DNA from: a virus
DNA length: 35,227 bases
Reading direction: 5' to 3' (one strand)
Virus record (IMG/VR): IMGVR_UViG_3300024517_000057
Coordinates: 1 to 35,227 of that record
Under the pieces are notes generated by a model that searched no databases, was not told the DNA's origin, and saw only the letters and a list, made by a program, of their open reading frames with translations. Position numbers and translations under genes: made by a program. Below, piece by piece: positions 3,619 through 29,783 of the stretch (positions within the stretch are counted from its first letter, which is position 1; each line of letters starts with the position of its first letter).

Positions 3619-3626
3619 TAAATTTA
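3619..3626 (+). promoter_or_regulatory. Late-type promoter box upstream of terS
   Basis: TAAATTTA (TAnnTTTR form of the Bacteroidota -7 box) ends exactly four bases before the small terminase ATG. A TTTA at 3597-3600, 18 bases upstream, can serve as the -33 element. Confidence 0.5.
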
Positions 3627-3630
3627 TACT

Positions 3631-4029
3631 ATGCCAACCGTTGAAATGAAAGCGAACAAAACGAACAACAACAAAAAGCTCGTTATCGAAGCTCTGCACA
3701 GTTCTCTCGGTGTTGTAACAGACGCATTGAAATCCACAAACCTATCGAGGACACAGTTTTATAAATGGATGAAAGACGATCAAGATTTCAGAGCCGAGGT
3801 CGATGACGTTAAAAATATTGCTCTGGATTTTGCAGAATCACAGCTATATTCTCTTATTACAGAAAAAAATCCGACAGCAGTTATTTTCTATCTAAAAACC
3901 AAAGGAAAAAACAGAGGCTACATCGAGAGAGTGGAAAACGTCAACAGCCAGAAAGATCCGTTTGCTGATATGTCAGACGATGAAATAAAAACCCGTTTAA
4001 ACGAACTCAGATCCAAACGTGATAACTAG
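3631..4029 (+). CDS. terS: Terminase small subunit
   Basis: A 132-residue protein located directly before the large terminase. Residues 15-52 form a helix-turn-helix of the terminase small subunit type (VIEALHSSLGVVTDAL, then NLSRTQFYKWMKDD). A helical oligomerisation region follows, with NPTAVIFYLKTKGKNRGY (about 81-98), a signature seen in phage small terminases. The tail DMSDDEIKTRLNELR is an acidic helix that probably contacts the large subunit. It would recognise the packaging site. The gene opens the late region and has its own TAAATTTA box. Confidence 0.85.
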   Translation: MPTVEMKANKTNNNKKLVIEALHSSLGVVTDALKSTNLSRTQFYKWMKDDQDFRAEVDDVKNIALDFAESQLYSLITEKNPTAVIFYLKTKGKNRGYIERVENVNSQKDPFADMSDDEIKTRLNELRSKRDN

Positions 4030-5434
4030 ATATGAGCTGGAGGAATTAAGGCTACTGGAGGAACTGGAGAGGCGTTCAGCAATAGATTCATTTATTGATT
4101 TTACTACGTACACGAAATCGGATTATTCAGTTCAATGGTTTCATAAATCTGTATGCGAACACATAGAGGCTTTCGAAAATAAGGAGATAAAAAAGCTGAT
4201 GATCTTTGTACCTCCACAGCACGGTAAATCGGAGCTTTCAACCAGACGTTATCCAGCGTGGACATTGGGCAGAAATCCAAATCAAAAACTGGGCGTAATA
4301 TCTTATAATCAGACAGTCGCATCCAAATTCGGAAAAGACATCCAAAGAATAATGGAGGACAGGACTTATAAAAACATTTTTCCAGACCTTAAACTGTCTG
4401 AAAATCTGCGACACGGCTACTTAAAAAACAGTACCGAATTTGAAATACCAGATTTCAGAGGCTCTTTAGTTTCCATCGGTGTCGGTGGAGCTTTGACATC
4501 CAGACAGATTGACAAACTTATTATTGACGATATTTACAAAGATTCAAAAGAGGCGTGGAGTCCGACAGTCCGAGCCTCTGTCTGGGATTGGTTTACATCC
4601 GTAGCGGAAACCAGATTGCACAACGACAGCCAGATTTTAGTTGTCTTTACCAGATGGCACGAATACGATTTAGCTGGGCGATTGTTACAGGATGAAGCAG
4701 ACGAGTGGGAAATTGTCAGCTTTCCATCAATCAAGATAGGCAGACCAACGAAAAAAGATCCAAGAAAAAACGGGGAGGCTCTCTGGGAAAACAGACACAG
4801 CAAAGAAAAACTAATGAAAGTTAAGCGGAAAAGTCCAGTCGTATTCGCTAATTTATATCAGCAAGATCCAAAGCCACAGGAGGGATTATTATACACTAGA
4901 TTTCAGACGTATAAAAAGCTCCCAGATGAATCAGAAAGAGGAATGATAAAAGCGTATTGCGACACAGCGGACACGGGTTCTGACTATCTTTGTTCGGTTG
5001 TTTATATGGAGTCTAATCAACGAGCTTTTGTTCTGGATGTTATTTACACACAAGATCCGATTGAAATCACAGAGGATCTAGTCGCTGACCAGTACACCAA
5101 ACACCAAGTTAACGAGGCTGTAATCGAGTCCAATGCTGGAGGTCGGAGCTTTGGCAGAAATGTCGAAAGACTTTTATCTGAAATGGGCAATATTAAAACG
5201 CATATTGTACCCTATTACCAATCCAAAAACAAAGTAACCAGAATTATAACAGAGGCATCAGCCGTTCAAAATGCTGTATATTTTCCCGAATATTGGCAGA
5301 CTAAATTCCCAGAGTTTTACGATGCTATGACGAAATACGGTCGCACAGGAAAGAACGAACACGATGACGCACCAGATACGATTACTGGAGTCGTTGAGGA
5401 ACTACAAAGAACTGAACAAGCCTTTATTTTATAG
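4019..5434 (+). CDS. terL: Terminase large subunit (packaging ATPase/nuclease)
   Basis: A 471-residue TerL. The Walker A motif is PPQHGKSE (65-72), and the Walker B is LIIDD (167-171) in the usual spacing. The TRWHEYD segment (211-217) is typical of this family. The C-terminal RNase H-like nuclease shows acidic positions in YCDTADTGSDY (313-323), ESNAGG (370-375) and HDDAPDT (448-454). It pumps DNA into the prohead and cuts it. The start is GTG at 4019, overlapping terS by 11 bases. No in-frame ATG lies nearby. Confidence 0.95.
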   Translation: MITRYELEELRLLEELERRSAIDSFIDFTTYTKSDYSVQWFHKSVCEHIEAFENKEIKKLMIFVPPQHGKSELSTRRYPAWTLGRNPNQKLGVISYNQTVASKFGKDIQRIMEDRTYKNIFPDLKLSENLRHGYLKNSTEFEIPDFRGSLVSIGVGGALTSRQIDKLIIDDIYKDSKEAWSPTVRASVWDWFTSVAETRLHNDSQILVVFTRWHEYDLAGRLLQDEADEWEIVSFPSIKIGRPTKKDPRKNGEALWENRHSKEKLMKVKRKSPVVFANLYQQDPKPQEGLLYTRFQTYKKLPDESERGMIKAYCDTADTGSDYLCSVVYMESNQRAFVLDVIYTQDPIEITEDLVADQYTKHQVNEAVIESNAGGRSFGRNVERLLSEMGNIKTHIVPYYQSKNKVTRIITEASAVQNAVYFPEYWQTKFPEFYDAMTKYGRTGKNEHDDAPDTITGVVEELQRTEQAFIL

Positions 5435-5447
5435 TTTGGAAAATCGT

Positions 5448-5455
5448 TATATTTG
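5448..5455 (+). promoter_or_regulatory. Late-type promoter box upstream of portal gene
   Basis: TATATTTG ends four bases before the portal ATG at 5460. A transcript from it would begin at or next to the start codon. The -33 element is not clear. Confidence 0.55.
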
Positions 5456-5459
5456 ACCT

Positions 5460-6743
5460 ATGAATCTGCTCCAAAAACTTTTAACAAGGGTTTCCATTCC
5501 GTTCGATAGATTAGATGGCAACAAGTATTTTACCTCAATTCTGCAATATGTTGGCTTTAATCGTCTGGTTTTTGATCCAGTAAACAAGACAAAATTAATC
5601 GCTGACGGCTATTCACAAACCAACGATGTTTATTCTATCGTCAGCAAAATAAGTCGATCCGCTGCGTCTGTTAAATGGTATGTGGAGGAAGTTTTTGACG
5701 ATGGCACAACAGAAAGAGTCTACGACTCCAGAGCAAACGAAATTTTAGCCTGTCCGAATCGTTTGGAAACTTGGTCGGAGTTCATCGAGGGGCATTTAAC
5801 ATATCGGCTAACTACTGGAGATTCATACGTTTACGGCTTACAGCCAGAGGGGTTTCCATACTTTGCAGAGCTGAACAATTTACAAGCTCAATATGTGGTT
5901 ATTGTAACAGGAAATGACATTGATCCGATTGCTGGTTATAGAATGGAGTGGGATAATTCAATGATAAAATTTTCAAATGACGAGGTACTGCATTTAAAAT
6001 ACATCAATCCAGCTGGTTATCAGTCAGATAGTTTATACGGTTTGAGTCCATTATCAGCAGCAATAAAGGTCTGGAAAACATCAAATGAACGCTGGGAGGC
6101 ATCCGCAAACGTTCTGGCAAACAAAGGTATTTCGGGCATCTTGTCGGATGAATCAGAAAGACCGATGCGACCAGATGAAGCAGCAGACCTCCAGACACAG
6201 GCTAACAGCGAAATGGGAGGTTCTAGCAAGTTCGGTCGGATAAGAGTTTCAAATAAAAAATTAAGGTTCTTACAGCTTGGATTATCGCCACAGGATTTAC
6301 AACTCTTGGAACAGGGCGTCATCGCTTTGCGTTCATTGTGTAATTCCTTTCACGTTGACAGCTCACTTTTCAATGATCCAGAAAACAAAACATATTCAAA
6401 TCGAAAAGAGGCTGAAAAATCATTTTGGACAGACGCTGTAATTCCAGAGCTTGAAAAGACAAAGCAAGGTTTAAACGATTGGCTGATGCAAGGCATATCC
6501 GAATTTGAAAACAGAACTTTGCGTTTAGGCTACGATACAAACCAAATCGAGGCATTACAGCCAGATATTCATTTGAGAGCTGACAGGCTATCTAAATTAA
6601 GGCTGTCGGGCATAATAACGGGCAACGATGCAAGACGAGAACTAGGATTACCAGAGATCGAAGCGGAGGAAATGAACGAGGTATTTATTCCAACCAGCCA
6701 ACAGCAAATCGACTTAACTGATAATCGGAACGCTGAAAATTAA
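5460..6743 (+). CDS. Portal protein, HK97 family
   Basis: A 427-residue portal that forms the dodecameric ring through which DNA enters and leaves the head. Family features are the block NDVYSIVSKISRSAASVKWY near residues 58-77 and the helical segment SLYGLSPLSAAIKVWKTSNE followed by an Ala-rich helix with GISGIL (about 190-228). The C-terminal part has LRADRLSKLRLSGIITGNDA, then REL and GLPE. Length is normal for HK97-type portals. It sits between terL and the protease, the standard order. Confidence 0.93.
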   Translation: MNLLQKLLTRVSIPFDRLDGNKYFTSILQYVGFNRLVFDPVNKTKLIADGYSQTNDVYSIVSKISRSAASVKWYVEEVFDDGTTERVYDSRANEILACPNRLETWSEFIEGHLTYRLTTGDSYVYGLQPEGFPYFAELNNLQAQYVVIVTGNDIDPIAGYRMEWDNSMIKFSNDEVLHLKYINPAGYQSDSLYGLSPLSAAIKVWKTSNERWEASANVLANKGISGILSDESERPMRPDEAADLQTQANSEMGGSSKFGRIRVSNKKLRFLQLGLSPQDLQLLEQGVIALRSLCNSFHVDSSLFNDPENKTYSNRKEAEKSFWTDAVIPELEKTKQGLNDWLMQGISEFENRTLRLGYDTNQIEALQPDIHLRADRLSKLRLSGIITGNDARRELGLPEIEAEEMNEVFIPTSQQQIDLTDNRNAEN

Positions 6744-6751
6744 TATATTTG
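6744..6751 (+). promoter_or_regulatory. Late-type promoter box upstream of protease gene
   Basis: TATATTTG ends four bases before the ATG at 6756, the same geometry as at 5448. It overlaps the end of the portal gene. No clear TTTG lies at -33. Confidence 0.5.
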
Positions 6752-6755
6752 TAAT

Positions 6756-7571
6756 ATGGCTCAAAAAAGTAAAACACACAATTATCGAAATATGGCTGAT
6801 AGTCTGGTCATTAAAGATGTTGATACTAAATCGGGAATAGTCGCTGGATATTTTTCAGCAACTGGGAACATCGACGCAGATGGCGATTTGATCGAGAAAG
6901 GTGCGTTTTCAAAATCCATACAAGAAAGGGGAGCAGACACAACGAGCAATCGTAAAATATCACATTTAGCGTTTCACGATGTCCGCAGACCAGTTGGCGA
7001 TATTCAAGTATTAAAAGAGGATGATCACGGTCTTTATTTCGAGTCGAAAATGGGCAGCCATACAGACGGACAGAATGCGTTGAAAATGTACGATTCTGGA
7101 ATTATCAGAGAACATTCAATCGGGTTTCAGTACATCGGAGATAAAACCAAGTGGATTGAGCTGGAGGATGGCTCGACTGATTTGCCGATGACTGAACAGG
7201 GCAAAGATTTTGTTTCATCAATGGCTGGTTATTACCAGATTTCAGAGGTCAAATTATGGGAGGGTTCATTCGTTACTTTTGGAGCAAACAGCGAAACACC
7301 GAGCTTTGGAGTTATCAAAAGTTTAGCACAGAAAAAAACAATGTTAGCAGAGATTAACGAGCGGATGAATTTGATCCGTAAAGAAATCTGCAATGGTACT
7401 TATTCGGATTCAGTATTTTCAATGCTCGACACCGAATTAGCATATGTCCAAGAGTGTTATAATTCACTTGTTACAATAGAGCCATCGGTCAAAGATACTC
7501 TATCAGCCGAGCCGATAAAAGACGAATCTGGGCGTTTATTTTTACTCAAATCATTAATTCAAAAACCATAA
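6756..7571 (+). CDS. Prohead maturation protease, S78 family
   Basis: A 271-residue serine protease of the HK97 prohead type. It has the N-terminal GYFSATGNIDADGDLIEKGAF block (31-51), the catalytic His in LAFHD (His74), the catalytic Ser in REHSIGF (Ser121) and the later WEGSFVTFGAN stretch typical of the family. It would cleave the capsid N-terminal scaffold and itself during head maturation. The C-terminal 80 residues form a helical extension. The capsid gene follows four bases later. Confidence 0.92.
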   Translation: MAQKSKTHNYRNMADSLVIKDVDTKSGIVAGYFSATGNIDADGDLIEKGAFSKSIQERGADTTSNRKISHLAFHDVRRPVGDIQVLKEDDHGLYFESKMGSHTDGQNALKMYDSGIIREHSIGFQYIGDKTKWIELEDGSTDLPMTEQGKDFVSSMAGYYQISEVKLWEGSFVTFGANSETPSFGVIKSLAQKKTMLAEINERMNLIRKEICNGTYSDSVFSMLDTELAYVQECYNSLVTIEPSVKDTLSAEPIKDESGRLFLLKSLIQKP

Positions 7572-7575
7572 TAAA

Positions 7576-8863: not shown

Positions 8864-8886
8864 AGTATTTTATATGTTGATCAAAT

Positions 8887-8918: not shown

Positions 8919-8922
8919 GCTT

Positions 8923-9090: not shown

Positions 9091-9093
9091 GAA

Positions 9094-9124
9094 TTTGGAT
9101 TTACAGAAATAAGCACTATATTTG
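9094..9124 (+). promoter_or_regulatory. Early-type promoter 1
   Basis: TTTG (9094-9097), a 19-base spacer and TATATTTG (9117-9124). The spacer begins GATTTACAGAAATAA, shared with promoters at 10426 and 33924. The transcribed leader contains AAACACAGAAAAAC before the ATG at 9154. Confidence 0.75.
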
Positions 9125-9153: not shown

Positions 9154-9324
9154 ATGAAAACATTTAAAAACATATTCGGAACTAAAATTGAGCATAAACC
9201 ATTTTTTCAAACTTGCTTAAATACTTGGAGGGTGGCAAGATTTGAGGATGGAGAACTTGAAACGGTTTATGAAGGAAAAGCTTTTAAAACTTACGAGGAA
9301 TGTTTAAAAGAGTGTATTAAATAA
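9154..9324 (+). CDS. Small three-cysteine protein, copy A of a duplicated gene
   Basis: A 56-residue protein that is identical at 45 of 56 positions to the one at 10481-10651. Shared features are FFQTCLNTWRVARFE (17-31), then GEL and VYE, and the tail TYEECLKEC (46-54) with Cys21, Cys50 and Cys54. The Cys pattern could give a disulphide or a metal site. Its promoter and leader are conserved with copy B, so the whole cassette was duplicated. A hairpin with a short T-run follows. Function unknown. Confidence 0.75.
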   Translation: MKTFKNIFGTKIEHKPFFQTCLNTWRVARFEDGELETVYEGKAFKTYEECLKECIK

Positions 9325-9336
9325 CTAAACCAAAAC

Positions 9337-9357
9337 GGGGGCTAATAACCCCCTTTT
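9337..9357 (+). terminator. Hairpin, probable terminator or attenuator
   Basis: GGGGG (9337-9341), a seven-base loop and CCCCC (9349-9353), followed by only four Ts. Because the next gene (9372) has no promoter of its own, partial read-through is likely. Confidence 0.55.
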
Positions 9358-9371
9358 AAAACATAAACAAA

Positions 9372-9749
9372 ATGACACAGAAACTCAAACGAACAAACTC
9401 AAAAGATTACACAGATCGAATGGAGAGCTTTCTTCTGGAGGCAATCGACAACGGAAAGGAAACCAGCAAAGGGAAAATCAATCTGTTTTTTTTAACATTT
9501 GAAAAATGCACTAACTACGCTTATAATTTGCATCGTTATCTAACCAGACAAAATCGTCTGGCTGACTACTTACAAGGATTGCCCAGCGATTTCAGTATTC
9601 CGTTTTACAATTATGACATTTTGAATTTCGCAAAGGAGATACACGAGGTCGATTCTTTGACTGAAAAACAGGAGAAAACAATACTGGAAAATTACTGGTC
9701 GCATATAGCATTTCATTTGATCAGATTGCACGAAAAATTTAACAAGTAA
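9372..9749 (+). CDS. Hypothetical accessory protein
   Basis: A 125-residue, probably all-helical soluble protein, rich in aromatic residues and Leu (FFLTFEKCTNYAYNLHRYL, then NYWSHIAFHLIRLHEKF). No catalytic motif or known family is evident. It sits 18 bases behind the hairpin at 9337 and is followed by the CACAGGAAACA-ATG start of the next gene, so it belongs to the island transcript. Confidence 0.65.
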   Translation: MTQKLKRTNSKDYTDRMESFLLEAIDNGKETSKGKINLFFLTFEKCTNYAYNLHRYLTRQNRLADYLQGLPSDFSIPFYNYDILNFAKEIHEVDSLTEKQEKTILENYWSHIAFHLIRLHEKFNK

Positions 9750-9763
9750 AAACACAGGAAACA

Positions 9764-10027
9764 ATGAAAATTTACAAGACAGCAAAAACGCTCAAACGAG
9801 CAAAGGAGATAATAACGGATTCAGTAACGGAACAGCAGCTGGATGTCAACGATGGATTTTTTACAATGCGTTCAGCACAATGCGAGTGCGGAGAAACTCA
9901 ACTGATCCAATGGCGAGGACTAAGCAAAACACAGGATGTCGTTCACGATGTACAGGCAGCAATCTGCGAGAGCTGTGGAGATAATGACGCAGCTGGGATC
10001 GATATCGTAAAATCAACAATTATATAA
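9764..10027 (+). CDS. Small zinc-ribbon-like protein
   Basis: An 87-residue protein with two cysteine pairs, CEC (Cys40, Cys42) and CESC (Cys68, Cys71), separated by about 25 residues. This is suitable for one tetrahedral zinc site. The N-terminal 30 residues are basic and helical (KTAKTLKRAKEII). It starts after CACAGGAAACA. The role is unknown. DNA, RNA or protein binding is possible. Confidence 0.65.
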   Translation: MKIYKTAKTLKRAKEIITDSVTEQQLDVNDGFFTMRSAQCECGETQLIQWRGLSKTQDVVHDVQAAICESCGDNDAAGIDIVKSTII

Positions 10028-10028
10028 A

Positions 10029-10130
10029 ATGGAAAACCAGAAACCAGAACAGGATTCAACTGGAGCAGCTTTGCAGCTAATTGTCGGACTTATCGGAGTC
10101 GGATTGGGTTTGTACCTCCTATTCGGATAA
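10029..10130 (+). CDS. 33-residue single-pass membrane protein
   Basis: The ATG follows the preceding stop by one base. The N-terminal 12 residues are polar. The rest is one hydrophobic segment, LQLIVGLIGVGLGLYLLFG, with a glycine-zipper spacing. A terminator follows, so it ends a transcript. It could be a small holin-like or superinfection factor, but nothing in the sequence decides. Confidence 0.6.
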   Translation: MENQKPEQDSTGAALQLIVGLIGVGLGLYLLFG

Positions 10131-10152
10131 AAGTCGCTTAAAACGAAAATAC

Positions 10153-10179
10153 AGGAGGATCTCGGTTCTCCTTTTTTTT
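10153..10179 (+). terminator. Intrinsic terminator
   Basis: AGGAG (10153-10157) pairs with CTCCT (10168-10172), followed by a run of seven or eight Ts. It closes the 9154-10130 transcript. Confidence 0.7.
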
Positions 10180-10180
10180 A

Positions 10181-10188
10181 TACATTTA
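10181..10188 (+). promoter_or_regulatory. Promoter box close to a start codon
   Basis: TACATTTA five bases before the ATG at 10194 resembles the late-type TAnnTTTR boxes but with one extra base of spacing. The -33 element is not evident. Confidence 0.35.
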
Positions 10189-10193
10189 AGGCT

Positions 10194-10397
10194 ATGCAAA
10201 AACCAGAGATAATCGCAGACCGTAATCTGTTACGTTTAACGGTTTACTTTATGCTGCTGGATCAGATAGATCACAGGACTTGGAATCTCGATTTAGTATT
10301 CAATAAGCACCGAAAGACGAAGCTATCGTTTAACAAAAACAACTGGACAAAATATACAGCATATCCAGTAAATGAGAGTCCCGAGGATCTTAATTGA
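10194..10397 (+). CDS. Hypothetical accessory protein
   Basis: A 67-residue soluble protein (LLRLTVYFMLLDQIDHRTW at 12-30, basic middle, polar tail). It stands alone between a terminator and the second copy of the early promoter, as a separately transcribed accessory gene. No family is recognised. Confidence 0.6.
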   Translation: MQKPEIIADRNLLRLTVYFMLLDQIDHRTWNLDLVFNKHRKTKLSFNKNNWTKYTAYPVNESPEDLN

Positions 10398-10425
10398 AAA
10401 AAAAAAATAAAAAAAATTGAAAACG

Positions 10426-10456
10426 CTAGGATTTACAGAAATAAAATGTATATTTG
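10426..10456 (+). promoter_or_regulatory. Early-type promoter 2
   Basis: TATATTTG (10449-10456) is preceded by a 19-base spacer starting GATTTACAGAAATAA, nearly identical to promoter 1. The -33 position reads CTAG instead of TTTG, so this copy may be weaker. Confidence 0.65.
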
Positions 10457-10480
10457 TAATGAATCAAAAACACAGAAATT

Positions 10481-10651
10481 ATGAAAGCATTTACAAACGT
10501 ATTCGGAACTAAAATTGAAAACAGACCATTTTTTCAAACTTGTTTAAACACTTGGAGAGTTGCAAGATTTGAAAAAGGAGAACTTGAAAGAGTTTATGAA
10601 AATAAAAGCTTTGAAACTTATGAAGAATGTTTAAAAGAATGTACTAAGTAA
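10481..10651 (+). CDS. Small three-cysteine protein, copy B of a duplicated gene
   Basis: A 56-residue paralogue of the protein at 9154-9324 (45 of 56 residues identical), with Cys21, Cys50 and Cys54 and the FFQTCLNTWRVARFE core kept. The differences are mostly surface-type residues (Lys, Glu, Asn, Thr), so both copies look functional. It starts after CACAGAAATT, and its stop overlaps the start of the broken repressor-like gene (TAATG). Function unknown. Confidence 0.75.
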   Translation: MKAFTNVFGTKIENRPFFQTCLNTWRVARFEKGELERVYENKSFETYEECLKECTK

Positions 10652-10784
10652 TGAAAAAGAAGCTAATTGAAATACCAACCGATTTATTTAAAAGATAGTT
10701 CGGTTGGCTTCTGAAAACGATAGAAGCGTAAACAAAGAAATGTTGAAAATATTCAAAAAGTTAGACAAAAACAATTTAATTTAA
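10651..10784 (+). pseudogene. Arc-type ribbon-helix-helix gene with a frameshift
   Basis: Frame 1 gives MKKKLIEIPTDLFKR and a stop at 10696. Moving back one base at the four-A run (10690-10693) continues with IVRLASENDRSVNKEMLKIF to a TAA at 10782-10784. Together this is a complete Arc/MetJ-like ribbon-helix-helix of about 44 residues: beta strand with IP, helix A, then NDRSVNKEM as the turn and helix B. One missing A in the run explains it. It could be a pseudogene, a sequencing error, or a site of ribosomal slippage. When intact it would be a small DNA-binding repressor. Confidence 0.6.
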
Positions 10785-10794
10785 TATTCTAATC

Positions 10795-10812
10795 GGGAGG
10801 CGAAAGCCTCCC
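10795..10812 (+). promoter_or_regulatory. Leader hairpin without T-run
   Basis: GGGAGGC-GAAA-GCCTCCC is a perfect seven-base-pair stem with a GNRA-type loop, 16 bases before the ATG at 10829. The missing T-run argues against termination. It could be an mRNA-stabilising or processing element. Confidence 0.6.
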
Positions 10813-10828
10813 ACAACACACAGAAACA

Positions 10829-11227
10829 ATGACAAAAAAAATTACACTATTCGAAGATCTCGCAGAGATTATGAAACCAGAAATCGCTGGAATTGATTTC
10901 ACAAAGCCACAGCCAAAATTTAACGAGGCTCTTATTTACGATGTCAACAGCGAGGATAAATACACCAGCGGAACTGAGGTGGAATTTCAGCATAATGGCA
11001 AACCGTATTTAATCGATGTGCTTTCATACACGCCAAAGATCGACAGCCGTGAAGATATGATCACAGCGGACATTCACGAATGGAGAATATTTTACTCCGA
11101 GCTGGATATTGCAGAGGATTTTGTTTTGCTCGATCCGTCTATTATCAAGGTGGAAACGTTAAAGGAATTTGAACAAAAGTGCATCGAGTATTTATCGGAC
11201 ACTTTAGATCCCACAGAAATCGATTAA
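10829..11227 (+). CDS. Hypothetical acidic accessory protein
   Basis: A 132-residue acidic protein with mixed alpha/beta character (YTSGTEVEFQHNGKPYLIDV in the middle, WRIFYSELDIAEDFVLLDP later). No motif is recognised. Translation starts after CACAGAAACA. The leader carries the hairpin at 10795. A 57-residue gene follows after ten bases. Confidence 0.65.
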   Translation: MTKKITLFEDLAEIMKPEIAGIDFTKPQPKFNEALIYDVNSEDKYTSGTEVEFQHNGKPYLIDVLSYTPKIDSREDMITADIHEWRIFYSELDIAEDFVLLDPSIIKVETLKEFEQKCIEYLSDTLDPTEID

Positions 11228-11237
11228 ATTTATTCAG

Positions 11238-11411: not shown

Positions 11412-11440
11412 ATTAAAACATAATTCGGACAAAATAAAGG

Positions 11441-11463
11441 GGAGGCAAAAGCCTCCTTTTTTT
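11441..11463 (+). terminator. Intrinsic terminator closing the head island
   Basis: GGAGGC (11441-11446), AAAA loop, GCCTCC (11451-11456), then seven Ts. The next late promoter box starts three bases later, so the island is insulated from the connector gene. Confidence 0.85.
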
Positions 11464-11465: not shown

Positions 11466-11473
11466 TATATTTG
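11466..11473 (+). promoter_or_regulatory. Late-type promoter box restarting the head-tail operon
   Basis: TATATTTG ends three bases before the ATG at 11477 and directly follows the terminator. It decides the start: an upstream in-frame TTG at 11462 lies in the terminator T-run. Confidence 0.55.
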
Positions 11474-11476: not shown

Positions 11477-12208
11477 ATGGCATTTATTCAAACAACGGAC
11501 TTTCTAGGCGATATAAAAATCAGCCAAAATTCGAAAGAGTCCGCAGACCTCCAGAGCTACATTGACCAGACACAGGAAAGAGTATTACGCAATCTGTTAG
11601 GCGATTCGGAGTATAATTTATTTATCGCTGATCTGGTTGCTGGAGTTCCTCAAACTCAAAAATGGCTGAACTTTCTGAACGGCTTTACGTGGGTTGACGA
11701 TTCAGATTACGACAATAATTACACAGGGATAAAACAACTATTAAGATACTTTACATATTTTGAATTTGTCAGAAATCTCAACGCAAAAACAACGACCATC
11801 GGCATCCAATTTGCAGATGCTGAAAATTCTTTACAGGCTACGCAGATCCAGAGCAATGTCGTTACGGAACAGCGATATAACAAGGGTGTTGAACTTTACA
11901 AAGAGGCAACGAAAATGCTCCTGTACTACGAAAAGAGAACGGAGAGTTATACAACGATCACAGAGATCGGAGCTGGAACATATCAAACAGCATTGTCCAG
12001 AAACATTAATTTCCTCACGATATCCGATACTGTAACTATTCTGGCAACGGATTACACGGTTACGGGCGTTGATTATGGACTTTCAACTTTTAATTTTACA
12101 GCAGCAGCTGGATTAACTTTTGCGGACAATGGTCAAGTAACTTGGCAACCATTTCCAAAGCTCCAGAACGAACTCTATAACTGGTCTGTAATGGATGGTT
12201 TTTTATAA
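11477..12208 (+). CDS. Head-tail connector-like protein
   Basis: A 243-residue protein at the position of the head-completion/adaptor gene. The N-terminal half is helical (DLQSYIDQTQERVLRNLLGD at about 24-43, then WLNFLNGFTW) and resembles gp6/gp15-type adaptor proteins. The C-terminal third is beta-rich (TVTILATDYTVTGVDYG, then FNFTAAAGLTF). It probably joins the portal to the tail. The assignment is from layout and position, and the exact family is not certain. Confidence 0.65.
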   Translation: MAFIQTTDFLGDIKISQNSKESADLQSYIDQTQERVLRNLLGDSEYNLFIADLVAGVPQTQKWLNFLNGFTWVDDSDYDNNYTGIKQLLRYFTYFEFVRNLNAKTTTIGIQFADAENSLQATQIQSNVVTEQRYNKGVELYKEATKMLLYYEKRTESYTTITEIGAGTYQTALSRNINFLTISDTVTILATDYTVTGVDYGLSTFNFTAAAGLTFADNGQVTWQPFPKLQNELYNWSVMDGFL

Positions 12209-17250: not shown

Positions 17251-17277
17251 TTAAGCAAAACACACACACACAACACA

Positions 17278-17301
17278 GGGGGCGAAAGCCTCCTTTTTTT
17301 T
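17278..17301 (+). terminator. Intrinsic terminator
   Basis: GGGGGC (17278-17283), GAAA loop, GCCTCC (17288-17293) with one G-U pair, then eight Ts. It insulates the accessory gene from the tail genes. Confidence 0.85.
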
Positions 17302-17304: not shown

Positions 17305-17312
17305 TATTTTTA
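17305..17312 (+). promoter_or_regulatory. Late-type promoter box before a GTG start
   Basis: TATTTTTA ends four bases before GTG at 17317. The spacing equals that of the other late boxes and supports this GTG as the true start. Confidence 0.45.
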
Positions 17313-17316: not shown

Positions 17317-17784
17317 GTGGATGAATTATTACAATATCTGGAAGCGATTAAATCCAAAATGAATTTTCGGGATGTTATGTTTCGGATCGGAAACGACAGG
17401 GAAGTTTTAGAGTTTATAATTCGTATGAACACCAGAGAGCAATTATTTGATAAAGGAATAGATGCCACAGGAAGGCGTTTGGATGAAATCGGGGGTGGAT
17501 ATTCAGATTATACAATTCAGTTCTTTAAAATCCCTGAATCGCTGCCGTATGACCGTGTAACATTATATCAGACAGGAGAATTTTACGAATCTTTTGTTGC
17601 AAGGGTTATCGGAGCTGGAGATATTGAAATAACAGCCAATCCAATTAAAGAGGACACAAATCTGGAAACAGAGTGGGGTAACCAGATTATTGGATTAACA
17701 AAAGAATCGCTGGAAAAATTGACACAGAAACTCCATCTGGAGCTAGAAAAATACTTGATAAATGAAGTTTTTAAACTGGGCTAA
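17317..17784 (+). CDS. Tail completion-like protein
   Basis: A 155-residue protein two genes before the tape measure. The layout TLYQTGEFYESFVARVIGAG, then EWGNQIIGLTKESLEKLTQ, resembles tail-completion or minor tail proteins. No catalytic motif. The start is GTG; no ATG lies in this frame nearby, and the box at 17305 has the right spacing. The next gene overlaps its end by 23 bases. Confidence 0.6.
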   Translation: MDELLQYLEAIKSKMNFRDVMFRIGNDREVLEFIIRMNTREQLFDKGIDATGRRLDEIGGGYSDYTIQFFKIPESLPYDRVTLYQTGEFYESFVARVIGAGDIEITANPIKEDTNLETEWGNQIIGLTKESLEKLTQKLHLELEKYLINEVFKLG

Positions 17785-18319: not shown

Positions 18320-21300
18320 AAAGGAGGATGTTTTTGATCCGAAGTTATTCACAGGCACAACACAGGAAATAACTAAAATGATCGAGGTTGTCAAGGCTTT
18401 AAAACAGGAGCTTTTGGAGGTCTTAAAAGTTAGTCAACAGGCATTGAAAGGTAACAAGTCAATGACGAACGCAGAGGACATTAAAAAACAAGCCAACGCC
18501 ATTAACCAAGTAACACAAGCGGAGAAAAATTTAACGACTGTCGAGAAAGAAAGAATCAGATTGGAAAGCAGATTGGCACAGGCACGGAGCAAAGAAAGTC
18601 AAGATTCGGCAAGAATTAAGCTGTTAATACAGGAGGAAAACAGAGCCAAAAAAGAGAGAGCCAGAGAAACGACAAAGGAGCTGGGAGCGTATACGAATTT
18701 ATCTGCAAAGCTCAATCGATTACGTAGGTCTTATAAAAATTTAGCGGTACAGGAAAAGCAAAACACAGCGGAGGGAAAACGACTGCTGAAAAATATTCAA
18801 CAGCTAGATGCCAAACTGAAAAATGTTGATGCGTCTGTCGGGCAATTTCAACGTAGTGTTGGAAACTATGGATCTGCTTTAAAAGGTCTGGGAGGCCGTC
18901 TAAGGAACTTAGCTGGAGCATTTGGTGTTGGACTTGGAATCGCTGGTTTTGCCCGTTTAATGCGTTCCACAGTTAGCGTAATAACTGATTTTGATTCTGC
19001 TATTGCTAATTTAGGAGCAATCAGTCAAGCGACTGGAAAAGATTTACAGGATTTAGAAGATAATGCTCTGGAACTGGGCGAATCGACTAGGTTTACGGCA
19101 ACGGAGGTCGCTGGATTACAGACTGAATTGGCGAAACTTGGTTTTACGACTCCAGAAATAATTGCCTCAACAGAAAGTATTTTGAATCTGGCTGCTGCGA
19201 CTGGATCGGATTTGGCATCTGCGTCAAAATTAGCTGGTTCAACAATGAGGGCTTTCGGTCTGGAGGCAACGGAAATGGAACGGGTTACAGCGGTGCTGGG
19301 AGTTGCTACGACAAAATCTGGTTTGAATATGGAATTTCTGGAAACAGCGATGTCGAAAGTTGCACCAGTTTCCAAAGCAATGGGTTTCACTATTGAAGAC
19401 ACAACGGCATTACTTGGAACTTTATCGAATGCTGGATTTGATGCGTCATCTTCGGCCACAGCAACTAGAAATATTTTATTAAAATTAGCTGATTCGGGTG
19501 GAGATTTAGCAAAGGAACTTGGTAAACCTATTTCCTCATTAAACGATTTAGCTCCAGCATTGGCAGAGCTAGAGAAAAGAGGGATTGATGTCGGAGAGGC
19601 GTTGGAGATGACAGACAGAAGGTCAGTAGCAGCATTTTTAACAATGATTGAAGGTACTGATACAATGATAGATCTACGGGATGGCATAACGGATGTAGCT
19701 GATGAATTACAGGATATGTCTGACAAACAGTTGGACACGGTAAACGGGCAATTGGCTCTGTTAAATTCCAAGTGGCAAGGAATGATTTTGGGAACGTCAA
19801 AAAGTTCTGGAGCTGTCAACAAATTAAAAAATGGACTTAAATTTTTACGGGAGAATTTATCTGGCATTTTAAAAGTTTTGAAATATGTTATTATTGCTTT
19901 TGCTGGTTGGAAATTGGGAAGCGTTGTGGCTTTAATTGGACAAAGTGCCAGAGGCGTTGTAGCGTGGACTAGGGCGTTAATTGCCCAAAGATCGGCAACA
20001 GTTTCGGCAACGGTTTCAACCAGAGCATTAAACACAGCTATTAAATCGAATCCGATTGGTTTAGCCATTTCATTATTAACAACTTTAATCGCTTTAATCT
20101 GGGATTATGCAAGTGCAACGGATGAAGCTGCGAGTTCACAGGATCGGCTAAATGAGGCGGTGGATTACGCCAACAGAAAAGGGGAAATAACGAACAAAGT
20201 TCTGGATAAAAGACTGGAAAAAATAAGGCTGAAAAACGCAGAACTGATTAAAGCAGCAGAGGATGAAGGTAAAACAATAGAGGAAATTGATAAAATACGA
20301 AACGAGGGTGTCGAGCGAGAAAGTAAAGCGATTGACAAAGCGATTGAAGGTCTACAAAATCAAATTGACGAAAAACAAAGAATGGTGGATGTCAATAACG
20401 ATTTGATACAAATGCAGAAAAACGCATACACGACTGATTTAGCGTCTATAAAGTCATCGGAACAGCTTATCAACTCCGCTAAAGCAGAAATAAACGAATA
20501 TAAGCAACAAATCGATGCTCTCAAAGATAGACAGCGAGAGGCACAGTTAAATATAACAGCCAAAATAAAAGAAACAGACGTTACGGATAAATTAACGGAC
20601 GCAGAAAAAAGGAGAAACAAGGCGTTAAGCGATGCAAGAAAACGAGCCAGAGAACGAGCAGAGCAAAAACGTCTTGATGCTATAAAACGAGAGGCACAGA
20701 AACAAACGGATTTAGTTGATCAAATCAACGAGGAACTGTTCAAAAAAGCCATAACAAGTGCGGAGGATCTTGTCGATGAAGAAATAGCCATACAAGTTCG
20801 AAAAGGTCTGGCAGTTGAGGAGGTCAATGTCGAAGCAATGGAAAAACTAATTGACGAGGAATTTGAAATACGTATGAAAGCTCTGGTTTTTAGAGCGAAA
20901 GCGGAAACGATGAAAGAGGGCGTAACGGCTGACGAAAAATATTTGATTAATTTAAAATTATTAGCAGATTTAAAAGAGTTGGAAAAGGAAAAAGTAAGGG
21001 TTTTAAATGCTGCAAACGATGAAGTAATCGAGGCACAAATTAAGGGTGCAGAAAGGTTAAACAAAACAGCGGAGGAACTAGCGGAGGAAAGAATCGAACG
21101 CCAACAAGAACTGGCAGAAAGTTTAAACGCTACTTTGGACATTTTACAAGACAGAACCAGACAACGGACACAGGAGAGAATTGCGTTAATGGATGACGAA
21201 ATATCTGCTGCCAGAAAACGACAGGAGGAATTAAAAAGACTAGCGGAACAGGGTAATATTGACGCACAAAAATCTCTGGCTGTCGAAGAAGCAAGGGAAA

Positions 21301-23686: not shown

Positions 23687-23900
23687 TAATTTTGCAAACC
23701 AGATTCAAAAGGATCTAAAAAAGTACAAACAGATGTATAATAGCCAGATGTCAGAGCTGGAAAAATCGGTAAAAGATTTGAATCCAGAGCAGCAAAAAGT
23801 CTGGACAGAAAGACAGGAGGCAATAAAAATCCACACAAAAAATCAAAATACAAAAGGGTTACTTTCATTACTTGACGAGATAAAGTCGGAAATTGGTTAA
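23655..23900 (+). CDS. Small coiled-coil protein
   Basis: An 81-residue Gln/Lys/Glu-rich protein, helical throughout (FANQIQKDLKKYKQMYNSQM). It overlaps the previous gene by 32 bases. It ends just before the late-type box of the next gene. It is possibly a small tail or assembly helper. No homology is recognised. Confidence 0.6.
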   Translation: MSIKDQQTQFNNFANQIQKDLKKYKQMYNSQMSELEKSVKDLNPEQQKVWTERQEAIKIHTKNQNTKGLLSLLDEIKSEIG

Positions 23901-23905
23901 ATTTG
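23898..23905 (+). promoter_or_regulatory. Late-type promoter box upstream of the large tail-tip gene
   Basis: TAAATTTG ends four bases before the ATG at 23910 and overlaps the stop codon of the preceding gene. Confidence 0.5.
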
Positions 23906-23909
23906 AACA

Positions 23910-26378
23910 ATGTTAAGAGTTAGAATTTTAGAGCAAAAATTTTATTCCCAGATCAGAAATGGCGAAACATTTGCCTCGAATCTGACTGACTACACAGACT
24001 ATCTGGCTGGTAATGTTGGCGATAAAATAAAAGTAGTTACCAGCATCGACGTTGCTTGGTGGACATCGGCATCGACCTCAACAGTTATTACAATATCTGG
24101 CTCGTCAATGACACGAAGTTCTGGAGATTTTACAACGGAGGGCTGGGCGTTGGGCGATACGATTGTCTATGTTACAGCTGGAGGTGTTACGGTTGCGTCA
24201 AAGACCATAACATTTTTAGATCCAACCACAATAATAACGGACACAGCTTGGTTGACAGGAACGGTAACGGTTACGAGTGGTATTTTTTACGGTCGTACAC
24301 CGATGGAAGGTTGTATCTTTAAATATAACTTAATCGAGAACGCAGAGGTAACAAATTATAACAGCAAAATCGATGGCACGACACAGGAATTTTTCGCAGA
24401 TGGAATTGTTACGGCTGCTGGAACTCCCGTAACTTTGAATCCAGCTGGAATTTCAATACAGAAAGCGTGGTTAAATGGCTCTGTAACGTCAAAATTTGTC
24501 GGTCTTTCTCCAGATTCAAACATTCAGTATTTTGAAATCGAACACGAGTTTATAATTCTGCCCTATTATGTCGACGGATATTTGCCCAATTTACAAACAG
24601 GAACGAATCCATTATTATTCGATGGTGCAAATAGTCTAAAATACGTTATAGATGTTAGTTTTCGGGATGTCGTTTCTAATCCAAACACAAACAAAAATGT
24701 CGTGCTGGATGACAGGCTTGGAACAGTTGGATTTTTCAACGAGGCGTTTAACGGGTTTACAAATAATTATGCTTTAGGCTCTACGGCTTTGACAGATGGC
24801 TCTGGTGGAACTTTGGATGGTCTTTCGGTATCAAATACCACGAACGTCGAAATAAGGGTTAACAGCTTAACAAATAGCTTTGGCGTTACTGATCCAGTTA
24901 TGGTCGGAGTTTCTTATTTACCAGACTCGATTAATTATGTAAATCTGGAGGATTTCGAAACGAATTTTATTTACGATTCTAAGCGGACAATTTACGGAGC
25001 TGGAGCAGTTAATTCAACGGTTATACAGAATTTCACAGCAACGAGAATTTCAAGCTCTCAAATCGTTGTAAACTTTGAAACGGTGTTTACACCATTACAG
25101 CAAACCAAATTAAATGACACGAGATTTTTTGTTATCTGGGTTGATGTTGGCGATGGAACGCTGACAAATCAAACCGATGACAGGGTAAATATTTTGGCGA
25201 AAGTTGACCAATATGATTATTCCGCTGACGTTCCAGATTTGGCATTCATCAGAAGTTCAGACCACCAATTTTTTCCGCATCCTATCGACTATACTCTGGC
25301 TGGTTATACTGATTTCAAAGGTTGGATGGAAGATGGATATTTATGGAATCTGGAAAATTTCAATGTCCGATTTTATATCAATGACGCTGGGGATCCAGAG
25401 CTGCCAATTATTCAAAGTGGCTCGTTTTTGTTAGCTGCGTATAATGAATCAACTGGAGATCTTTTTGAGCTGGACAGATACGATTTTGATGTTTTAGGAA
25501 ATTCGGTTTTTGTGCCTGTTAGTGGATATTCATTTATAGAGCAAAAAATAGAGATAGACACAGAGCGAGGTTTCACATTATTAACGGGCGATCAGTTCAA
25601 TTTTGTTAAATGGACATCGTTGGGATTTTTTGACAATCAAACCAGATACGATATAAAAATTGCTTTCAAATTACGCTGGGAAAAATGGATAAATAATCCA
25701 GATGTAAACACTATTTTCTATGATCCAACAGAGCCGAATAATGGATTTAATATGGAGTCGTACAGATACTCTTTAAAAAATGGTTATGCAATTGTAACGG
25801 TGTTTGATGTTGATGTCCAGAGCGATACAAATGTTACACGTTACAGATGGATTTCGCCAGATGGAAATGTGCAGCTGTGGGATAAAAACGACACGGAAGA
25901 TCCGAAAACATATTGTGCTGAAATTAATACATACGACTCGATAGGTAATAACTTGAATGGAAACTATTTAACTGATGAAAATACATTTGTAAAAGCTCGT
26001 TTTACTCGGTGCGATGCTGGAGTTTTAACCGTTGACGATGAAACTATTTCTGGAGTTATCAGATTTGATATTGAAAATGGCGGTCTTTATTCAATTCACG
26101 AGTTATCAACATTCAGAGATCCAGAGGCTGGGAGTCCGCTGATTCCTTTGGCTGGAGAAACGCACACAAAAATAACAGTTGATCCAGCTCTTTTTTATGT
26201 CGATTTGGAATGTATGATAGATTATACACAACTAATAGCTGGGAGTACCTATTGCATTACTGGTCGTGTATGGTGGGAGGACAAAGATGGTGGAGGAGTA
26301 ATAATCGGAGAGGATGGAGTAGTAATCGGAGCAGAGGGCAAAGCTGGAAATCCAGAAATTCCATTTAAAGTCGAATAA
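23910..26378 (+). CDS. Large beta-rich tail fibre or baseplate protein
   Basis: An 822-residue, Thr/Asp/Asn-rich protein. Residues 40-130 contain Ser/Thr/Val repeats typical of beta-sandwich adhesion domains (STSTVITISGSSMTRSSGDF). The rest alternates predicted strands and turns (about 170-740), and the end is Gly-rich (GGGVIIGEDGVVIGAEGKAG). It follows the hub-like gene, as tail-tip fibres do. Receptor binding or baseplate wedge are both possible. No family is recognised. Confidence 0.7.
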   Translation: MLRVRILEQKFYSQIRNGETFASNLTDYTDYLAGNVGDKIKVVTSIDVAWWTSASTSTVITISGSSMTRSSGDFTTEGWALGDTIVYVTAGGVTVASKTITFLDPTTIITDTAWLTGTVTVTSGIFYGRTPMEGCIFKYNLIENAEVTNYNSKIDGTTQEFFADGIVTAAGTPVTLNPAGISIQKAWLNGSVTSKFVGLSPDSNIQYFEIEHEFIILPYYVDGYLPNLQTGTNPLLFDGANSLKYVIDVSFRDVVSNPNTNKNVVLDDRLGTVGFFNEAFNGFTNNYALGSTALTDGSGGTLDGLSVSNTTNVEIRVNSLTNSFGVTDPVMVGVSYLPDSINYVNLEDFETNFIYDSKRTIYGAGAVNSTVIQNFTATRISSSQIVVNFETVFTPLQQTKLNDTRFFVIWVDVGDGTLTNQTDDRVNILAKVDQYDYSADVPDLAFIRSSDHQFFPHPIDYTLAGYTDFKGWMEDGYLWNLENFNVRFYINDAGDPELPIIQSGSFLLAAYNESTGDLFELDRYDFDVLGNSVFVPVSGYSFIEQKIEIDTERGFTLLTGDQFNFVKWTSLGFFDNQTRYDIKIAFKLRWEKWINNPDVNTIFYDPTEPNNGFNMESYRYSLKNGYAIVTVFDVDVQSDTNVTRYRWISPDGNVQLWDKNDTEDPKTYCAEINTYDSIGNNLNGNYLTDENTFVKARFTRCDAGVLTVDDETISGVIRFDIENGGLYSIHELSTFRDPEAGSPLIPLAGETHTKITVDPALFYVDLECMIDYTQLIAGSTYCITGRVWWEDKDGGGVIIGEDGVVIGAEGKAGNPEIPFKVE

Positions 26379-26379
26379 A

Positions 26380-27860: not shown

Positions 27861-27862
27861 AA

Positions 27863-28500: not shown

Positions 28501-28889
28501 TGTCCAAGAGGCTGACTAAAAATTTTAACCAGTCGGAGTTCGATTGCTCTGACGGTTCAAAGATGCCAATTGATGTATATAATAATGTCGTGGAACTTGC
28601 GGAAAATCTGCAAGTTTTACGGGATTATGTAGACAGACCGATAAAGGTAAACTCTGGTTATCGATCTCCAGATTATAATGCTCTTGTCGGAGGTGCAACT
28701 AAAAGTCAACATTTGCTGGGCAAAGCTGGAGATATCGTTATCGGAAATCTCAAACCAGAAGAAGTCGCAGATATAATAATGGAGCTGATAACGTTGGGTA
28801 AAATGGAACAGGGCGGTATCGGAATTTATAACTCGTTTACGCATTACGACATACGAGGAACAGCAGCACGATGGGATTACCGAAAATAA
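28500..28889 (+). CDS. Endolysin, M15 family peptidase
   Basis: A 129-residue zinc peptidase of the M15 (peptidase M15_3/VanY-like) type that cuts peptidoglycan stem peptides. Visible signatures are VNSGYRSPDYN (50-60), the zinc motif SQHLLGKAGD (69-78, with His71 and Asp78) and the final ligand region FTHYDIRG (His115). Size is typical for this endolysin group. No signal peptide, so a holin is needed for export. Confidence 0.9.
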   Translation: MSKRLTKNFNQSEFDCSDGSKMPIDVYNNVVELAENLQVLRDYVDRPIKVNSGYRSPDYNALVGGATKSQHLLGKAGDIVIGNLKPEEVADIIMELITLGKMEQGGIGIYNSFTHYDIRGTAARWDYRK

Positions 28890-29194
28890 GACCAGTTTAC
28901 GTTTTGGGGTTTTTGTTTCTGGTCAGCTTTGGTCTAAACATTTATTTTGCCTCACAGAGCTATTTTAAAGGCTCTAGGCTGATTGAATATGAAAAGACAA
29001 TACAACATATCAATCAACAGGAGAAAGAAGCTAAAAAGCAAATTATTGAGCTTTCGGCAAAAGTGGATGAGTTAAACAGTTTAGAGGATGACGTTAAGAA
29101 TTTTTACGATAGTATTTCCGTTTCTGTTGGTACAGATTACAGGGTACAAGACAGCATTTTGTCAGCCATCCTCCACAGACACAATCTGCATTGA
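28871..29194 (+). CDS. Inner-membrane spanin candidate (Rz-like)
   Basis: A 107-residue protein with an N-terminal membrane anchor (VYVLGFLFLVSFGLNIYFA, 9-27) followed by a periplasmic coiled coil (residues 38-80). This matches i-spanins that help fuse inner and outer membranes. It overlaps the endolysin by 19 bases, and its 3' part is overlapped by the next gene in another frame, as in Rz/Rz1 pairs. Confidence 0.65.
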   Translation: MGLPKIRPVYVLGFLFLVSFGLNIYFASQSYFKGSRLIEYEKTIQHINQQEKEAKKQIIELSAKVDELNSLEDDVKNFYDSISVSVGTDYRVQDSILSAILHRHNLH

Positions 29195-29492
29195 TAAAGT
29201 AAAATACACAGCGATTGTAAACGGGTTGATCCAGTTGGATCTGAAAGACAGTCTGCTTACTATCTGCAATAAAAAAACGGATTATCTGGACTCCATAATC
29301 CAGTCAAAGGATGAAATAATATCTGGGCAAGAAATGAAATCGCTGGTATTTAAAGACCAGATTAACAGTCAAGAAAATACTATCAATTTACAGCTAAATC
29401 AAATCGGAAAATTGAAATTAACCAAAACGATTTATGGACTTGGTTTCTGTATTTCTGCTGGTGGATTGCTAACGATTTTGTTATTACAGTAA
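29088..29492 (+). CDS. Second spanin-like protein, u-spanin-type layout
   Basis: A 134-residue protein overlapping the Rz-like gene by 107 bases. It has an N-terminal signal-like segment (RIFTIVFPFLLVQITGY) ending near Cys25 (AFCQ), a charged middle region (60-105) and a C-terminal membrane segment (IYGLGFCISAGGLLTILLLQ). Lipid-type N terminus plus C-terminal span is the layout of unimolecular spanins, but Phe at the -1 position makes the lipobox imperfect. It is either the outer partner of the Rz-like protein or a u-spanin. Confidence 0.6.
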   Translation: MTLRIFTIVFPFLLVQITGYKTAFCQPSSTDTICIDKVKYTAIVNGLIQLDLKDSLLTICNKKTDYLDSIIQSKDEIISGQEMKSLVFKDQINSQENTINLQLNQIGKLKLTKTIYGLGFCISAGGLLTILLLQ

Positions 29493-29498
29493 AATCAC

Positions 29499-29506
29499 TA
29501 AATTTG
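29499..29506 (+). promoter_or_regulatory. Late-type promoter box with -33 element
   Basis: TAAATTTG ends four bases before the ATG at 29511, and TTTG (29477-29480) lies 18 bases upstream. This is the best-formed promoter of this class. Confidence 0.6.
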
Positions 29507-29510
29507 TATT

Positions 29511-29783
29511 ATGGCAACAGCAAAAAAACCAACAGCCTCAAAACCAAAGGCAACGGAAAGCAAACCAGAAACGTCTGAACCTAAAGCAGAAATAAAAGCT
29601 CCAAAGCGTAAAGCGATAACGACACCAAAAAAGGTTCTGGATGGTGTGCAGAGAGAAAATTACGTTACTGTTGAGTTTATTATTGATATGCCTAAACAAA
29701 AAATTAACAAAGGAGATCAGTATTCCGTTGGAAAATCAACGGCTGACAGCCTTGTAAAGCTCAAAAGAGCTAAGATTCTATAG
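29511..29783 (+). CDS. Lys/Pro/Ala-rich small protein
   Basis: A 90-residue protein with a disordered basic N terminus (repeats such as KPKATESKPETSEPKAE, residues 12-28) and a folded C-terminal 45 residues (YVTVEFIIDMPKQKINKGDQ, then a helix). It might bind DNA or be packaged in the head. It has its own late-type box and a terminator, so it is expressed as a single gene. No family is recognised. Confidence 0.6.
   Translation: MATAKKPTASKPKATESKPETSEPKAEIKAPKRKAITTPKKVLDGVQRENYVTVEFIIDMPKQKINKGDQYSVGKSTADSLVKLKRAKIL

Follow-up and report, generated by a model that had tools for sequence, protein, structure and literature searches.

The window analysed here is the whole 35,227-nt record IMGVR_UViG_3300024517_000057 (positions 1 to 35,227), which comes from a phage of a Bacteroidota bacterium. 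The first-pass annotation had reported seven TA-rich boxes directly before its structural genes, and a literal sequence check found all seven in place. TAHHTTTR ends 4 nt before the starts at 3631, 5460, 6756, 17317, 23910 and 29511, and 3 nt before the ATG at 11477 (Table 1). Three further boxes were found, 5 nt before 10194 and 11238 and 6 nt before 1714. All the boxes near starts in the window fit TAHH. Five of the seven are full TAHHTTTG, and the two before 3631 and 17317 end in A where the consensus has G, making them weaker matches to it. The protease box opens on the base directly after the portal stop codon. The 23910 protein has homologs in Flavobacterium phages. Family searches gave no match for the 29511 protein, and a solved-structure search gave no credible match for the 17317 family.

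Table 1. Boxes, genes, hairpins and contrasting promoters in the window.
Feature	Position	Strand	Details
TAAATTTG box	1700..1707	+	6 nt before ATG 1714 (HTH protein)
TAAATTTA box	3619..3626	+	4 nt before TerS ATG 3631; TAAATTTA-TACT-ATG
Terminase small subunit, predicted leaderless start	3631..4029	+	phrog_309, E 6.8e-08
TATATTTG box	5448..5455	+	4 nt before portal ATG 5460; TATATTTG-ACCT-ATG
Portal protein, predicted leaderless start	5460..6743	+	PF04860, E 4.8e-50
TATATTTG box	6744..6751	+	4 nt before prohead protease ATG 6756; TATATTTG-TAAT-ATG
Prohead protease, predicted leaderless start	6756..7571	+	PF04586, E 3.3e-17
MCP	start 7576	+	PF05065; 4 nt past prohead protease stop
Contrast: ordinary -33/-7 promoter, TTTG-N19-TATATTTG	9094..9124	+	29-nt spacer to ATG 9154; CACAG motif in leader
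Weaker hairpin + T-run	10153..10179	+	dG -8.8, z -1.5; ends 1 nt before box
TACATTTA box	10181..10188	+	5 nt before ATG 10194; kept in L002 only
TAAATTTA box	11225..11232	+	5 nt before ATG 11238; kept in L002, not in L003
Hairpin + T-run, predicted intrinsic terminator	11436..11463	+	dG -15.4 kcal/mol, z -3.3; ends 2 nt before box
TATATTTG box	11466..11473	+	3 nt before ATG 11477; TATATTTG-CGT-ATG
DUF6712 protein, head-tail connector position, predicted leaderless start	11477..12208	+	PF20459, E 1.1e-05
Hairpin + T-run, predicted intrinsic terminator	17277..17301	+	dG -12.5, z -2.5; ends 3 nt before box
TATTTTTA box	17305..17312	+	4 nt before GTG 17317; TATTTTTA-TTCT-GTG; same in L350/L351
Tail protein of phrog_6195, predicted leaderless start	17317..17784	+	phrog_6195, E 4.2e-22
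TAAATTTG box	23898..23905	+	4 nt before ATG 23910; TAAATTTG-AACA-ATG
Large tail-region protein, predicted leaderless start	23910..26378	+	phrog_12056, E 3e-57
TAAATTTG box	29499..29506	+	4 nt before ATG 29511; TAAATTTG-TATT-ATG
Small protein, predicted leaderless start	29511..29783	+	open reading frame
Contrast: second ordinary -33/-7 promoter	33924..33954	+	CACAG repeats follow

The start codons were examined together with the boxes. Each of the starts at 3631, 5460, 6756, 17317, 23910 and 29511 is the first one after the upstream stop. The frame of 11477 could open at TTG 11462, and homolog alignments begin at the ATG. The 17317 start is GTG in the window; since the closest relative has ATG at the same codon, this start is considered sound. 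Three of the box-linked starts (11477, 17317 and 10194) directly follow a hairpin and T-run. The stable hairpin and U-run of an intrinsic terminator are found before 11477 and 17317, and in weaker form before 10194. A hairpin and T-run immediately 5' of a box was also seen in the loci G002, L006 and L012, in Flavobacterium phage 11b, before the start at 21116, and in Croceibacter phage P2559S, at 4961. This compact terminator, -7 box and AUG unit recurs in other Bacteroidota phages.

The first-pass annotation had named absence of the boxes from relatives as a refutation of leaderless transcripts, and comparison with relatives did not refute them. Spacing is retained in homologs of the portal, protease, 11477, 17317 and 23910 genes, and it is position-locked while the flanks change for the portal (50-52% amino acid identity), the 11477 family (34-38%), the protease and 23910. 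The portal box stands at spacing 4 in L002, L003 and the 50-52% identical L004/L006. Before 11477, both hairpin and box are kept in every homolog found, down to 34% amino acid identity, with spacings of 4 nt in L003, L435 and L006 and 7 nt in L432-434. Counterparts of the protease box in L003 (TATCTTTG) and of the 23910 box in L009 (TAAATTTA) both have spacing 4, and that of the 29511 box in L009/G002 (TACATTTG) has spacing 3. L002/L003, with diverged TerS alleles, do not conserve the TerS box. Conservation in relatives is poor or absent for the boxes before 11238 and 1714, and the HTH gene at 1714 is near-leaderless at best.

An initial broad survey of 80 TerL relatives gave only a faint signal, diluted by phages of other phyla. 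It was replaced by a set of 402 non-redundant genes from phage loci picked out through the tail, portal and 11477 proteins. TAHHTTTG was found 3 nt before the start in 3 of these genes, at 4 nt in 19 and at 5 nt in 3, with 4 in all at 6-13 nt and 21 at 14-25 nt, the last range corresponding to ordinary leaders. In the same genes, seven scrambled or altered motifs gave 0-5 matches at 3-5 nt. The leaderless-type matches are spread over 15 unrelated protein families. Among non-redundant homologs of the phrog_6195 tail gene, 18 of 49 carry the box at 3-6 nt, exactly 4 nt in 12 of them; for other genes of these loci the figure is 5 of 158. A scan of IMG/VR for the terminator, box and ATG pattern was likewise bimodal, with at least 21 partly redundant matches at 2-5 nt, at least 1 at 6-13 nt and at least 31 at 14-28 nt. 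Since boxes are nearly absent 6-13 nt from starts, leaders of about 2-9 nt appear to be selected against. Among the matches listed for Bacteroidota chromosomal loci, 4 of 27 box-ATG pairs have 4-nt spacing and most have 20-28 nt, redundant numbers that are too small for a firm phage-host contrast. The layout is not universal among flavophages, as FpV9, tant8-1 and phi18:1 scarcely use it.

The -7 element TAHHTTTG of F. johnsoniae occupies -12 to -5, leaving 4-5 nt to the start point (PMC6847099), and the F. psychrophilum element is placed likewise (PMC9723704). A 4-nt spacer would therefore set +1 on the A of the AUG, and a +1 fixed on the start codon is the pattern seen in the survey, with its peak at exactly 4 nt and its gap at 6-13 nt. 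Of the seven boxes, only that at 29499 has a -33 TTTG element (TTTG-N18), which in SigA-type promoters stands about 19 nt upstream; in F. johnsoniae promoters the -33 element is weak too (PMC6847099). The leaderless transcripts proposed by the first-pass annotation are thus strongly supported as a prediction for the first cistrons at structural genes, by the box spacing and its conservation, by the genome-wide histogram of spacings and by the terminators that adjoin the boxes. Very probably, the boxes are -7 elements for the host's primary sigma factor (SigA/SigABfr type) and are fused to the start codons of the genes that open the structural transcription units, giving leaderless mRNAs. RNA polymerase would start on the A of the AUG or within ~1 base, and by analogy with leaderless translation elsewhere, ribosomes would recognize the 5'-terminal AUG directly. 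At 11477, 17317 and probably 10194, the box would lie 1-3 nt after an intrinsic terminator that closes the unit upstream. Terminator, promoter and start codon, almost touching, would then be packed into a single element of ~50 bp that insulates adjacent transcription units. Late transcription is plausible because the genes encode terminase, portal, protease, connector and tail proteins.

Several other explanations were weighed against this one. With 62% A+T and 65 TAHHTTTR boxes on its two strands, the window could have produced the layout by chance or through start-annotation artefacts. A box at spacing 3-4 occurs in 7 of 55 genes, and column-preserving permutations gave a mean of 0.53 and a maximum of 4 in 20,000, a conservative null since the permuted columns already contain the motif. 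None of the 33 minus-strand boxes is followed within 0-19 nt by a start codon whose frame runs for at least 55 codons. Along with these controls, the conservation and the spacing histogram of the non-redundant survey already refute chance and artefact, to which we give virtually no credence. Another possible explanation is that the box is a translation signal, such as an S1 or AT-rich ribosome site, as Bacteroidota lack Shine-Dalgarno sequences and have AT-rich signals upstream of starts (PMC3160421). However, the same-composition motifs AAHHTTTG, TTHHTTTG, ATHHTTTG and TTHHATTG show no enrichment at 4 nt, and the boxes do not supply the A at -3 and -6 of the known Kozak-like determinant (PMC6847099). 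The gap in motif counts at 6-13 nt, with matches again at 14-25 nt, is also what would be expected of a promoter with or without a leader. A translation site was therefore rejected as extremely unlikely.

The boxes could also be promoters whose leaderless starts contribute little, translation of these genes drawing mainly on long late transcripts that antitermination lets read through. The structural genes all lie on the same strand with short gaps, and antitermination of late operons is common in tailed phages. Moreover, some homologs of the 17317 tail gene have a terminator just before the ATG and no canonical box, which suggests read-through there or another promoter type. On read-through RNA, however, a stable hairpin (to -15 kcal/mol) would sit ~15-25 nt before the start, and there would be no need for selection to keep the box at exactly 4 nt. 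We consider this unlikely as the main route, although read-through transcripts from upstream could be additional carriers of the box-headed genes. The first-pass annotation had further proposed two translation modes, with a possible global switch from leadered CACAG mRNAs early to leaderless mRNAs late. Two non-overlapping start contexts do exist at the sequence level: CACAG lies within 14 nt of the start in 14 genes, a box at 3-6 nt in 10, and both in none, and most leaderless starts are in structural genes. Nevertheless, neither signal precedes about two-thirds of the structural genes; these begin no more than ~11 nt after the preceding gene or overlap it, and must therefore start internally, within the same phase, on mRNA that carries a leader. 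The structural region also contains CACAG genes (9154, 9764, 10481, 10829 and 16426). Most late genes do not share one mode absent from early genes, and the phase-wide switch was rejected as very improbable. No translation factor favouring leaderless mRNA was recognized among the genes searched, which covered a minority of the small early genes. Under the preferred reading, leaderless starts would be confined to the gene that opens each late unit, with downstream genes starting internally. A broader version, in which the terminator, -7 box and AUG fusion is standard in many Bacteroidota phages and altered ribosomes or initiation factors favour leaderless structural mRNAs late, first cistrons escaping a block on leadered mRNAs, is speculative and unlikely.

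The lambda cI mRNA from PRM is a leaderless phage transcript that starts at the AUG of a phage gene, as predicted here. In contrast, cI is a repressor gene in a Shine-Dalgarno host, while the starts described here belong to structural genes with a Bacteroidota-type promoter. The AR9 paper also reports that phage transcripts are often leaderless. A fixed distance from promoter box to AUG is likewise the signature of Actinobacterial and Deinococcus leaderless genes, whose -10 box precedes the start by about 10 nt (PMC3160421), but box sequence and phylum differ from those of the window phage. That survey looked for Pribnow-type boxes, a limitation it names itself, and among 37 Bacteroidetes/Chlorobi genomes it identified leaderless genes in 1 (PMC3160421). 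Megablast of half of the window against named phages gave no match, and a TerL search of genome contigs found no relative, so no prophage or host was assigned. The layout was not found described for Bacteroidota phages in the literature covered, which excluded preprints and most subscription journals. In F. psychrophilum, 5.5% of the 890 mRNAs mapped are leaderless (PMC9723704), and in B. thetaiotaomicron about 3.7% of 5' UTRs are shorter than 10 nt (PMC7366714). These chromosomal mRNAs share the -7 element and start geometry with the phage, but they form a small fraction, and no tie to a particular class of genes is stated for them, whereas the predicted phage starts head several virion units and often adjoin a terminator. 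If the leaderless prediction is right, Bacteroidota phages repeatedly put leaderless first cistrons on virion genes, even though such mRNAs are rare in mapped hosts. Simple rules could then locate the true start codons and the transcription units of uncultured Bacteroidota phages, Bacteroides and Flavobacterium would gain compact parts for gene expression, and these genes would be a natural set in which to study initiation by SD-less ribosomes at a 5'-terminal AUG.

The first-pass annotation placed a -7-type promoter box (TAnnTTTR) four bases before six structural gene starts and three bases before a seventh, and proposed that these genes are transcribed as leaderless late mRNAs. On a literal check of the window, all seven boxes and spacings were as written (see table), and three additional boxes were found at 5, 5 and 6 nt from starts. 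A box at 3-4 nt precedes 7 of 55 window genes, compared to 0.53 in permutations. On the minus strand there are 33 boxes; none (0/33) has, within 19 nt, a start codon that begins a long frame.

The window is a virus record from IMG/VR, 35,227 bases long with 38% G+C; its gene content is of siphovirus type, with nearly all genes on the plus strand. The only named phages with homologs of 23910 are Flavobacterium phages, which points to a flavobacterium as the probable host.

Window features by gene start, with the spacing (nt) between box end and start codon for the seven first-pass boxes
Feature	Window start	Spacing
RecT	118	
HTH protein	1714	
TerS	3631	4
TerL	4019	
Portal	5460	4
Prohead protease	6756	4
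Major capsid	7576	
DUF6712 connector-position protein	11477	3
phrog_6195 tail protein	17317	4
Tape measure	18306	
Large tail-region proteins	21917, 23910, 26380	4 (23910)
M15 peptidase endolysin	28500	
Gene 29511	29511	4
Exonuclease VIII-like protein	30565	
Genes with CACAG(A/G)AAA 3-14 nt before the start	905, 1482, 2411, 9154, 9764, 10481, 10829, 16426, 30331, 30565, 31892, 32186, 34156	

The F. johnsoniae -7 element, TAHHTTTG, occupies -12 to -5, with the start point 4 or 5 nt on (PMC6847099), and the F. psychrophilum box has the identical position (PMC9723704). By this geometry, a 4-nt spacer would put +1 on the A of AUG. Judged from sequence, transcription of most of the seven genes very probably starts on the AUG or no more than about one base away from it. 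F. johnsoniae mRNAs are mostly leadered (PMC6847099), leaderless mRNAs make up 5.5% of 890 in F. psychrophilum (PMC9723704), and leaders under 10 nt account for ~3.7% in B. thetaiotaomicron (PMC7366714). Leaderless mRNAs are already known in Bacteroidota and in phages; no description of a conserved box-start arrangement in Bacteroidota phages was found in the literature searched.

In the nearest relatives the spacing is mostly kept, TerS excepted. One record (L002/L008/L010; TerL 98% identical) keeps 6/7 boxes. In L003/L009/L011 (TerL 93% identical), five boxes (portal, protease, 11477, 17317 and 23910) sit at 4 nt and that of 29511 at 3 nt, despite changed flanking bases and a switch of the protease and 11477 boxes to TATCTTTG. 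The portal and 11477 boxes are at 4 nt in L004/L006, at 50-52% (portal) and 34-35% (11477 family) identity. In L002/L003 the TerS box is absent; their TerS allele is a different one, with its nearest box ~21 nt away from the start. The terminase small subunit of L012 (G004) has TAAATTTG at 4 nt, like TerS of the window.

Among 49 homologs of the 17317 tail protein, all below 70% identity, 18 have a box at 3-6 nt (12 at exactly 4 nt), versus 5/158 other genes of those loci. A hairpin and T-run lie just upstream in 27/49, and hairpin and box occur together in 13/49. In homologs L356, L362, L371, L376, L386, L401, L403 and L428, the hairpin and T-run end 0-7 nt before the ATG without a TAHHTTTR box; these genes may either use another promoter type overlapping the hairpin or depend on read-through. 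In the 11477 family, hairpin and T-run are followed by a box at 3, 4 or 7 nt in 7/7 loci. Portal homologs (26 non-redundant) have the box at 4-6 nt in 5, at 15-21 nt in 9 and at 28 nt in 1. A promoter before portal is thus widespread, with predicted leaders of about zero to about 11-17 nt by lineage. The 15-21 nt boxes belong to more distant relatives (L451, L453, L460, L466, L467, L485, L497, L505 and L515).

In a pooled set of 402 non-redundant genes from loci recruited by protein, TAHHTTTG occurs 3 times at 3 nt, 19 times at 4 nt and 3 times at 5 nt, only four times in total at 6-13 nt, and as a broad class from 14 nt. Averaged across spacings 6-44, the motif occurs ~1.2 times per position (48 over 39), so a count of 19 at a single spacing lies far beyond chance expectation; scrambled motifs reached no more than 5 at 3-5 nt. 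Genes of the leaderless class spread over 15 unrelated families, and the peak does not rest on the tail family alone, which contributes 8/26 cases at 3-6 nt. Because the loci were recruited with structural genes, the survey rate is not a whole-phage-genome rate. No start of the leaderless-box type occurs in FpV9 or tant8-1, and a single one occurs in each of phi18:1 and 1/32.

Starts 11477 and 17317 each have a strong hairpin with T-run (-15.4 and -12.5 kcal/mol, respectively) whose end is 2-3 nt upstream of the box, and the gap from terminator to start codon is too small for any further promoter. A weaker hairpin with T-run (-8.8 kcal/mol) lies upstream of 10194. The hairpin, T-run and box layout also occurs in G002, L006, L012, Flavobacterium phage 11b and Croceibacter phage P2559S. 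An IMG/VR pattern scan (CTCC-T6, box, ATG; frames of at least 50 codons) gave at least 21 spacings of 2-5 nt, at least 1 of 6-13 nt and at least 31 of 14-28 nt, some loci being near-identical. Leaderless genes among the matches listed include two phrog_6195 tail proteins, one virion structural protein (phrog_14543), one MazG-like hydrolase and one gene matching Acb3, a CBASS inhibitor; given the latter two, leaderless genes are not all structural. The Pfam Acb3 match (E 5e-39) on an IMG/VR contig (L141:513-1331) stands 4 nt behind its -7 box, with a terminator directly before.

We propose that each structural unit has a -7 promoter, presumably read by the host sigma factor, fused to its first start codon and often preceded by the terminator of the unit before. 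Translation would begin at the 5' AUG, the structural units would be expressed late, and a phage activator may replace the missing -33 contact.

The first-pass annotation had also paired leaderless mRNAs with CACAG leaders of early genes as two translation modes, possibly switched between phases. Two start contexts do exist in the window: CACAG lies within 14 nt of 14 starts and a box at 3-6 nt from 10, never both on one gene. A phase switch does not follow, since most genes of 4019-29492 carry neither signal and closely follow or overlap the preceding gene, being internal cistrons initiated on RNA with upstream sequence, and CACAG genes lie inside the structural region (9154-10829 and 16426).

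The CACAG(A/G)AAA motif, 3-14 nt before many non-structural gene starts and also present in L002, L003 and L009, is not a Shine-Dalgarno sequence. Near-identical dispersed promoters, TTTGGATTTAC(A/C)GAAATA-N5-TATATTTG, followed by AAACACAGAAAAAC leaders, lie at 9094-9124 and 33924-33954, with a related box at 10449-10456; two of the dispersed promoters sit in islands within the structural region. On the minus strand, a -33/-7-like promoter at 29881-29911, TTTG-N19-TATTTTTG, faces the end of the 29511 unit and could possibly produce an antisense or leftward transcript.
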